This document shows positions 13,393 to 13,660 of a DNA stretch of 64,000 nucleotides, in pieces. Origin of the DNA: Xylanimonas ulmi (lineage in GTDB: Bacteria; Actinomycetota; Actinomycetes; Actinomycetales; Cellulomonadaceae); the NCBI RefSeq assembly GCF_004216535.1, contig NZ_SGWX01000001.1:434001-498000 (forward strand), in the 5' to 3' direction. The notes below the pieces were generated by a model that worked only from the letters and a program-made list of their open reading frames with translations, was not told where the DNA came from and made no database searches. Both the position numbers and the translations under genes were made by a program. The stretch's first letter is position 1. Each line of letters begins with the position of its first letter.

Positions 13393-13615
13393 CGGCCGGG
13401 CGTGAGCCCGGCCGAAGGCTCCCGCCCCACGCCCACTCCTCCGGGCGTGACGGCGGATGGCACCCGGTTCGTGGCCCGGGTGCGCACCCTCACGGGTGCA
13501 CCCGCCCTCGGGTTCGTGGCCCCGAGGGCGGGAAGCCGTACGAGTGGGTTCGTGGCCCCGCTCGTGCCGCGCCGGGCTTGCCCGGCGCCGGCGTCCGGTT
13601 CGTGGCCCGGACGCC
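13393..13615 (+). repeat. Dense hairpin array; four hairpins share the loop TTCGTGGC
   Basis: Eight short hairpins lie head to tail. Four have different 8-9 bp stems around the same loop TTCGTGGC: 13460-13483 (GCACCCGG/CCGGGTGC), 13504-13529 (GCCCTCGGG/CCCGAGGGC), 13540-13565 (ACGAGTGGG/CCCGCTCGT, one G-U pair), and 13590-13615 (GGCGTCCGG/CCGGACGCC). Between them are 13393-13414 (loop GTGA), 13428-13449, 13484-13499 (loop TCAC) and 13569-13588 (loop CTTG). Stem sequences differ while pairing and loop are kept. The region lies just after the adhE stop. I see no convincing gene here, although the open frame at 13402-13764 repeats FVA three times. Confidence 0.75.
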
Positions 13616-13620
13616 CTGAT

Positions 13621-13660
13621 GGGGCCCGGCGGCGCAATGCGCCGCCGGGCCCCGTCCCTT
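13621..13660 (+). terminator. Strong hairpin ending the adhE region
   Basis: A perfect 15-bp stem (13621-13635 with 13639-13653, GGGGCCCGGCGGCGC and its complement) around AAT is followed by GTCCCTTT. It is a GC-rich terminator with a weak T tract and closes the hairpin array. The remaining 100 bases to ligA hold nothing else clear. Confidence 0.75.

Follow-up and report, generated by a model that had tools for sequence, protein, structure and literature searches.

A conserved hairpin array with a repeated loop, a candidate structured RNA, follows adhE in Xylanimonas ulmi and related actinobacteria

Results and discussion

A row of hairpins lies between adhE and ligA

The window analysed here, a stretch of 64,000 nucleotides from the genome of Xylanimonas ulmi, contains a gene for a bifunctional aldehyde/alcohol dehydrogenase (adhE), followed on the same strand by a row of hairpins and then by a gene for a DNA ligase (ligA). 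The features of this locus, in coordinates of the window, are as follows.

10651..10657, plus strand: Shine-Dalgarno sequence of adhE, GGAGGAG, the complement of the hp0 loop CTCCTCC
10665..13382, plus strand: adhE, bifunctional aldehyde/alcohol dehydrogenase, 905 aa (open reading frame; Pfam Aldedh, Fe-ADH and ADH_Fe_C), with its stop codon at 13380-13382
13393..13414, plus strand: 9-bp hairpin with loop GTGA, directly after the adhE stop (from fold and comparison)
13422..13456, plus strand: hp0, hairpin with the anti-Shine-Dalgarno-like loop ACTCCTCC at 13435-13442 (from fold and relatives)
13460..13483, plus strand: hp1, 8-bp stem, loop TTCGTGGC at 13468-13475
13484..13499, plus strand: hp1b, spacer hairpin with an unconserved loop, missing from genome G004
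13501..13532, plus strand: hp2, 12-bp stem, loop TTCGTGGC at 13513-13520
13538..13567, plus strand: hp3, 11-bp stem including two G.U pairs, loop TTCGTGGC at 13549-13556
13569..13588, plus strand: hp3b, spacer hairpin, loop not conserved
13590..13615, plus strand: hp4, 9-bp stem, loop TTCGTGGC at 13599-13606
13618..13656, plus strand: terminal terminator-like hairpin, 18 bp, whose stem covaries in relatives
13761..16298, plus strand: ligA, NAD-dependent DNA ligase, a neighbour outside the element (likely GTG start at 13761 by comparison; open reading frame from 13728)

The four hairpins hp1 to hp4 differ in their stems and share one identical loop, just as the original prediction from this DNA had described, and they are arranged in two similar modules, hp1-spacer-hp2 and hp3-spacer-hp4. 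The predicted hairpin starts were right to within 3 bases (hp2 begins at 13501 instead of 13504, and hp3 at 13538 instead of 13540). Stems of 8-9 bp had been given for all four, which holds for hp1 and hp4 but is too short for hp2 and hp3, and the terminator-like hairpin, given as 15 bp, is present with 18. The four further hairpins that had been listed are present as well, although the conserved loop of hp0 had been overlooked. An alternative pairing of the arm GGGTGC (13494-13499) with the first hairpin is possible, as had been proposed, but the lowest-energy fold places this arm in a hairpin of its own. A terminator scan predicted no terminator and found no T run after the terminal hairpin.

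The region 13383-13665 folds with a minimum free energy of -216 kcal/mol, compared to -161.5 kcal/mol (sd 4.9) in shuffled sequences (z = -11.0), and none of 200 dinucleotide shuffles was as stable. The sequence GGTTCGTGGCC occurs 9 times in the genome of X. ulmi (G000): 4 of these are the array hairpins, while in the other 5 the same 8-nt loop is flanked by only 1-2 paired bases. A model search of this genome with stricter filters likewise found no hairpin below E 0.05 beyond these four, and a genome-wide dispersed repeat, as expected of a REP or mobile hairpin element, was therefore rejected.

The array is restricted to one clade

To search for the array in other genomes, a covariance model (R1) was used, built from an alignment (A4) of 25 of the 28 hairpin positions; G010 hp1 was left out as misaligned, and G004 hp1 and hp2 for their degenerate loops. 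The E-values of this model are rough, coming from a short calibration, searches over 40 genomes were run with stricter filters, and the source sequences of the model match it by construction. The original prediction had proposed that relatives be checked for hairpins with the same loop and complementary arms, and such arrays were indeed found directly after adhE in 7 of 221 genomes of the family, each with at least 2 strong model matches. Six of the 7 belong to the same genus (G000, G005, G001, G010, G008, and G004), and the seventh (G027) to another genus of the family. Within a set of 59 related genomes, the carboxyl-terminus of AdhE was matched in 34, and 30 of the loci were read.

Five other members of the genus (G002, G003, G006, G007, and G009) carry adhE without the loop motif in the next 500 bases (388 in G009, where the contig ends), and showed no model match better than E 0.17 anywhere; these genomes measure 1.5-2.5 Mb and are 65-93% complete. 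As the array is absent from these 5 of the 10 other genus members compared, it is clade-restricted and dispensable. In evenly drawn samples of the order (396 genomes) and the class (394 genomes), the array was found in the window genome only. The other 6 array genomes were scored in neither sample, so that both samples test the space outside the clade. No match was found among 50,697 phage and 72,556 plasmid records.

Isolated model matches in 8 other genomes of the family, 3 of the order sample, and 5 of the class sample, together with one extra match in G005, were taken as probable chance matches, and several of them had other loops or broken arms. The matches in the class included near-perfect hairpins with the loop ATCGTGGC at single sites (L289, L291, and L292), mostly under long open frames. 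A scan of the named genomes for two tandem loops returned at least 117 stretches; among the 80 listed, only L104 scored below E 0.001, which is the Promicromonosporaceae metagenome-assembled genome contig WRHK01000074.1, the same contig as that of G001. A plain stem scan over the collected loci found no other array. In other actinobacteria, terminator-like hairpins topped by GGGATCGTGG(G)ATCCC stand alone at 2 loci (L266 and L217); their resemblance to the motif may be due to chance or convergence.

Stems and loops show the marks of a selected RNA structure

Folded alone, each of the arrays forms nearly the same series of hairpins (z-scores of -6.3 to -9.6, 60 shuffles each), with hp1b missing in G004. 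The position of the 13393-13414 hairpin is taken by a hairpin of other sequence in G005 and G027, while the remaining 4 array genomes have little or no room there. The loop reads [A/T]TCGTGGC at 25 of the 28 hairpin positions, its first base being A in 16 and T in 9 and its fourth base G in all 25; the 3 degenerate loops are those of G010 hp1 (GCCGTGGC), G004 hp2 (GTCGTGGC), and G004 hp1, which no longer has the motif. Apart from G010 hp1 and G004 hp2, the motif loops were 0.91-0.99 unpaired (25 of 27). The GG/CC closings that had been predicted are borne out, as both pairs adjoining the loop are G-C in all 23 distinct hairpins; at the fourth pair, 22 of them have C-G and 1 has U-G. Some of this conservation could be due to the hairpins having descended from each other.

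In the set of 25 hairpins, 23 of them distinct, pairing was seen in 93.5% of stem cells, compared to 67.0% when partners were shuffled and no more than 52.2% in slid controls, and the covariation score was 0.674, compared to 0.188 and at most 0.288, respectively. The number of pairs with two-sided changes (7 of 10) and the pair-type counts in this set were not above those of the shuffles. When the 7 arrays were compared over their full length, two-sided changes were counted in 18 of 84 pairs, compared to 6.3 in shuffles and at most 9 in slid controls, in a structure that was itself predicted by RNAalifold from the same alignment; none of 500 shuffles reached this count. In RNAalifold itself, covariation earned no net bonus (term +0.17), with two-sided changes in 21 of 87 pairs being offset by broken ones. 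hp1 never varies among orthologous arrays and is uninformative in the array-wide test. The spacer hairpins mostly keep their pairing while the sequence of their loops drifts. Selection on hairpin structure, which the original prediction had read from a loop that is kept while its stems change, agrees well with what relatives show, namely an array in the same position and compensatory changes in its stems.

Invariant columns make up 24 of 32 in the loops of hp1-hp4 and 57 of 78 gapless columns in their stems, 7 of 7 gapless columns in the hp0 loop (7 genomes) and 13 of 28 in the hp0 stem, 4 of 25 gapless columns in the spacers (57 columns in all), and 0 of 18 gapless columns after the terminator (75 in all). 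Between species, the stems are thus about as conserved as the loops, and what distinguishes the loop is that it is common to 4 hairpins with different stems. The comparable conservation of orthologous stems would suit a passive 3'-end stabilizer and terminator, in which a row of hairpins shields the adhE mRNA from 3' exonucleases and loop identity is incidental, and so would the very stable fold right after the stop codon and the terminator-like end in 7 of 7 genomes. Such a function leaves unexplained that 4 hairpins with different stems agree in their closing pairs and in 7 of 8 loop bases while the spacer loops drift, and we consider it improbable.

The consensus helices contain 20 G-U and 6 A-C cells (9 and 1 in hp1-hp4, 5 and 1 in the terminal hairpin, 4 and 4 in hp0), counts that include cells shared by descent and hence not independent. 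As G-U on one strand corresponds to A-C on the other, the excess of G-U favors RNA in the sense of adhE over a DNA hairpin as the paired molecule. A common loop between nearly perfect inverted repeats, recurring in related genomes, could also be expected of hairpin DNA or of a mobile element (REP-like, attC-like, or a cruciform site for a protein), an option that the original prediction had left standing. The asymmetry between G-U and A-C disfavors it, as do the single fixed locus per genome, after adhE, and the lack of matches among phage and plasmid records, leaving it hardly any probability. The identification of the adhE-sense RNA strand as the paired molecule is supported by these sequence comparisons, and we consider it very likely that the array is an RNA. 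Judged by its sequence, it is a genuine structured RNA that has been conserved within a single clade of actinobacteria.

The array belongs with adhE

In G005, G027, G001, and G010, ligA lies about 0.3-0.4 kb downstream, and in these genomes and G000 adhE, the array, and ligA are neighbors. In G004 and G008, ligA is 2.5 kb and 1.3 kb away from adhE, respectively, with other reading frames in between, and the array remains beside adhE. As the array stays in place even where ligA is farther away, it belongs with adhE. The interval between the array and ligA in G004 contains an open reading frame of 748 aa, and in G003, which has no array, ligA is within 0.2 kb of adhE.

Little sequence separates the adhE stop codon from hp0 in G001, G010, G008, and G004, and a scan of the window for sigma-70-type promoters, which is a weak test in this phylum, found none. 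The short gap and the absence of a detected promoter make the 3' UTR of the adhE mRNA the simplest origin of the RNA, and we infer that the array is co-transcribed with adhE.

Loop-to-loop spacings in the 7 arrays are 45/36/50, 48/36/49, 50/34/50, 45/36/48, 45/36/52, 48/35/55, and 33/51. As these are not all multiples of 3, there is no conserved reading frame. A protein-coding function was rejected on this basis, since the spacings break the frame between relatives and the overlapping 120-aa open reading frame (13402-13764) has no Pfam match; translation as part of a conserved protein, which the original prediction had named as evidence against itself, was thus not found.

The hp0 loop matches the ribosome-binding site of adhE

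In 7 of 7 array genomes, the loop of hp0, CUCCUCC, is a perfect match to the adhE Shine-Dalgarno sequence GGAGGAG along 7-8 nt, with energies of -12.8 to -14.4 kcal/mol. GGAGGAG is present in 2 of 11 adhE leaders from array-less genomes (G012 and G032), a count that leaves out the leaders of G002, where the start is off the contig, and G003. A second GGAGGAG is located at 10796, within adhE. The match may simply reflect the use of strong Shine-Dalgarno sequences in related species, and we give the complementarity moderate weight as a putative sign of regulation. The hp0-like pattern CCCNCTCCTCCGGG was searched in 39 genomes and occurred in 1-2 copies in 5 of the 6 array genomes among these; G005, where the letters differ, had none. 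Copies were also present in 11 other genomes, and most of the 20 loci read had short stems.

The match would be explained if the array were a base-pairing RNA similar to the 6C/B11 sRNA of mycobacteria, with its loops serving as seeds: CUCCUCC for GGAGG Shine-Dalgarno sequences, that of adhE first, and UCGUGGC for GCCACGA. The invariance of the hp0 loop and the contrast between array and array-less leaders point in this direction, and C-rich loops of B11 are described in PMC10470900 as repressing through pairing with ribosome-binding sites. The UCGUGGC loops, on the other hand, have no conserved partner in the adhE leader, where the longest match is 4-7 nt and differs by genome (one loop type per genome), and GCCACGA is absent from 10600-13660. 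The combination GGAG-N(0,14)-GCCACGA is not enriched in G000 (102 places, 45 + 57, compared to 183, 102 + 81, for the reversed pattern), and inspection by eye showed no surplus in array genomes relative to other genomes. In addition, a seed has no need of invariant GG/CC closing pairs, and GGAGGAG is also simply a strong Shine-Dalgarno sequence in genomes that are related. Base pairing through the loops as the main function is therefore rather unlikely in our view.

Further upstream, the adhE leader contains the sequence TGTGAAACCCTTCACA (10600-10615), which we take to resemble the Rex operator consensus, and the palindrome TGTGGTCTGACCACA (10583-10597), presumably GntR/PdhR-like; similar sequences are visible in the adhE leaders of several relatives. 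With a Rex-operator-like site upstream of adhE, synthesis of the array RNA probably takes place at high NADH. A short hairpin, GGACC-TGC-GGTCC, is located just upstream of the Shine-Dalgarno sequence (10631-10643). Its counterpart in relatives (L247, L249, and L251) is GGGACC-GGTCCC in G005 and G001, and in G008 it is GGGCC-GGCCC, which suggests that the 5' UTR of adhE may be structured as well.

The array resembles several RNA families and belongs to none of them

Among the papers listed by searches of the open-licence PMC literature, none was found to describe the element. Rfam 15 gave no family at the gathering threshold, the best being RAGATH-5 with 26.3 bits of the 50 needed (13607-13666), and 6C, presumably accession RF01066, was not among the 8 Rfam matches up to E 10 over 12800-14200. 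The sRNAs CcsR1-4 of Rhodobacter sphaeroides have loops that carry the anti-Shine-Dalgarno-like CCUCCUCCC; their host gene and phylum are unrelated to those of the array, and only hp0 resembles them. RNAs of the CcsR type are cut out of a co-transcript by RNase E.

CsrB contains several stem-loops with one conserved loop motif. Similarly, PMC4005645 describes RsmZ as 4 stem-loops, in which the loop motif and the closing pairs are conserved, followed by a terminator, and RsmE as reading the loop together with the top of the helix on this RNA. The array shares with both RNAs the several stem-loops with one loop motif, the conserved closing pairs, and the terminal hairpin, here without a T run. 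It differs from Csr/Rsm sponges in that the A(N)GGA motif does not occur, there being no GGA in any of the hp1-hp4 loops, and in that it sits after adhE, whereas RsmZ and CsrB are stand-alone genes. CsrA (PF02599), the regulator that binds the classical RNAs of this kind, was not found in 11 genomes of the genus, 4 of which are less than 80% complete and which include 6 array genomes, with G027 lying outside this set. In the order, CsrA is patchy, with 12 of 35 genomes searched containing it.

With the 6C/B11 sRNA, as characterized in PMC10470900, the array has in common its actinobacterial host; unpaired loops of that sRNA can pair with ribosome-binding sites, and the hp0 loop is rich in pyrimidines and complementary to the Shine-Dalgarno sequence. 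Unlike 6C, it has a single CUCCUCC loop rather than two C-runs, 4 further loops of other sequence, and a link to adhE.

Its tandem stem-loops with short linkers also recall ANTAR-target RNAs, and an ANTAR target, or a decoy such as EutX/Rli55 for EutV, a sponge mentioned in PMC8934654, was considered as a further explanation. Of 35 genomes searched, a set that has all array genomes but G027, 33 encode ANTAR proteins, among them the 6 with the array; G000 has one such protein (PF03861 match). Loops of the A type carry A as their first and G as their fourth base, which are the conserved ANTAR positions according to PMC8164766 and PMC8934654. The loops are 8 nt long, however, instead of the hexaloops of ANTAR targets, all 4 loops of the window genome begin with T, and array-less relatives carry ANTAR proteins too, making this explanation very improbable. 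The array may work like RsmZ, by analogy, and is a member of none of the Csr/Rsm, 6C, and ANTAR families.

A possible docking site for a trans-acting partner

It is quite probable that the array is a partner-binding RNA of some kind, taking the protein, RNA-pairing, and ANTAR readings jointly. Our preferred reading, to which we assign a rough probability of 0.45, is that of a conserved structured RNA of about 240 nt, from hp0 to the terminal hairpin, which would form the 3' end of the adhE transcript and offer multivalent docking to a trans-acting partner. Among the options in the original prediction, a 3' UTR regulatory RNA, a protein-binding RNA, or a multi-site decoy appear to fit best. The 4 [A/U]UCGUGGC loops on GG/CC-closed stems would be the docking sites for one such partner, and this is most likely an RNA-binding protein recognizing the loop together with its closing pairs; recognition by a protein is favored because conservation extends past the loop into the fixed closing pairs. 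The array could act in cis as a 3'-UTR element, or as a small RNA derived from the 3' UTR after processing.

If a protein recognized the hairpin on further transcripts as well, other copies of the site would be expected; the genome of X. ulmi yielded no additional one at E < 0.05, which favors a role in cis or a private partner. An effect on adhE in cis or a dedicated sponge is therefore likelier than a broad regulon of identical sites. Synthesis of the adhE mRNA, probably under redox control by Rex, would supply the sponge or self-regulatory tail, and hp0 could additionally cover the adhE ribosome-binding site. More specifically, one could imagine a regulatory pair in which a novel actinobacterial RNA-binding protein, in hosts where CsrA was not detected, reads GG-[A/U]UCGUGGC-CC and is titrated by the 4-site sponge at the 3' end of adhE, so that the redox state sets the amount of free regulator; this version is less likely than not.

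If the preferred reading holds, the 3' UTR of adhE would connect this gene for a fermentation enzyme with post-transcriptional control. A loop that recurs unchanged on stems of differing sequence is a clear signature of an RNA with multivalent binding, and few RNAs of this kind are, to our knowledge, known in Actinobacteria. With its loop and GG/CC closing pairs, the array would be a ready bait for isolating a new RNA-binding protein, and it appears to be present in the cultured xylan degrader Xylanimonas cellulosilytica.
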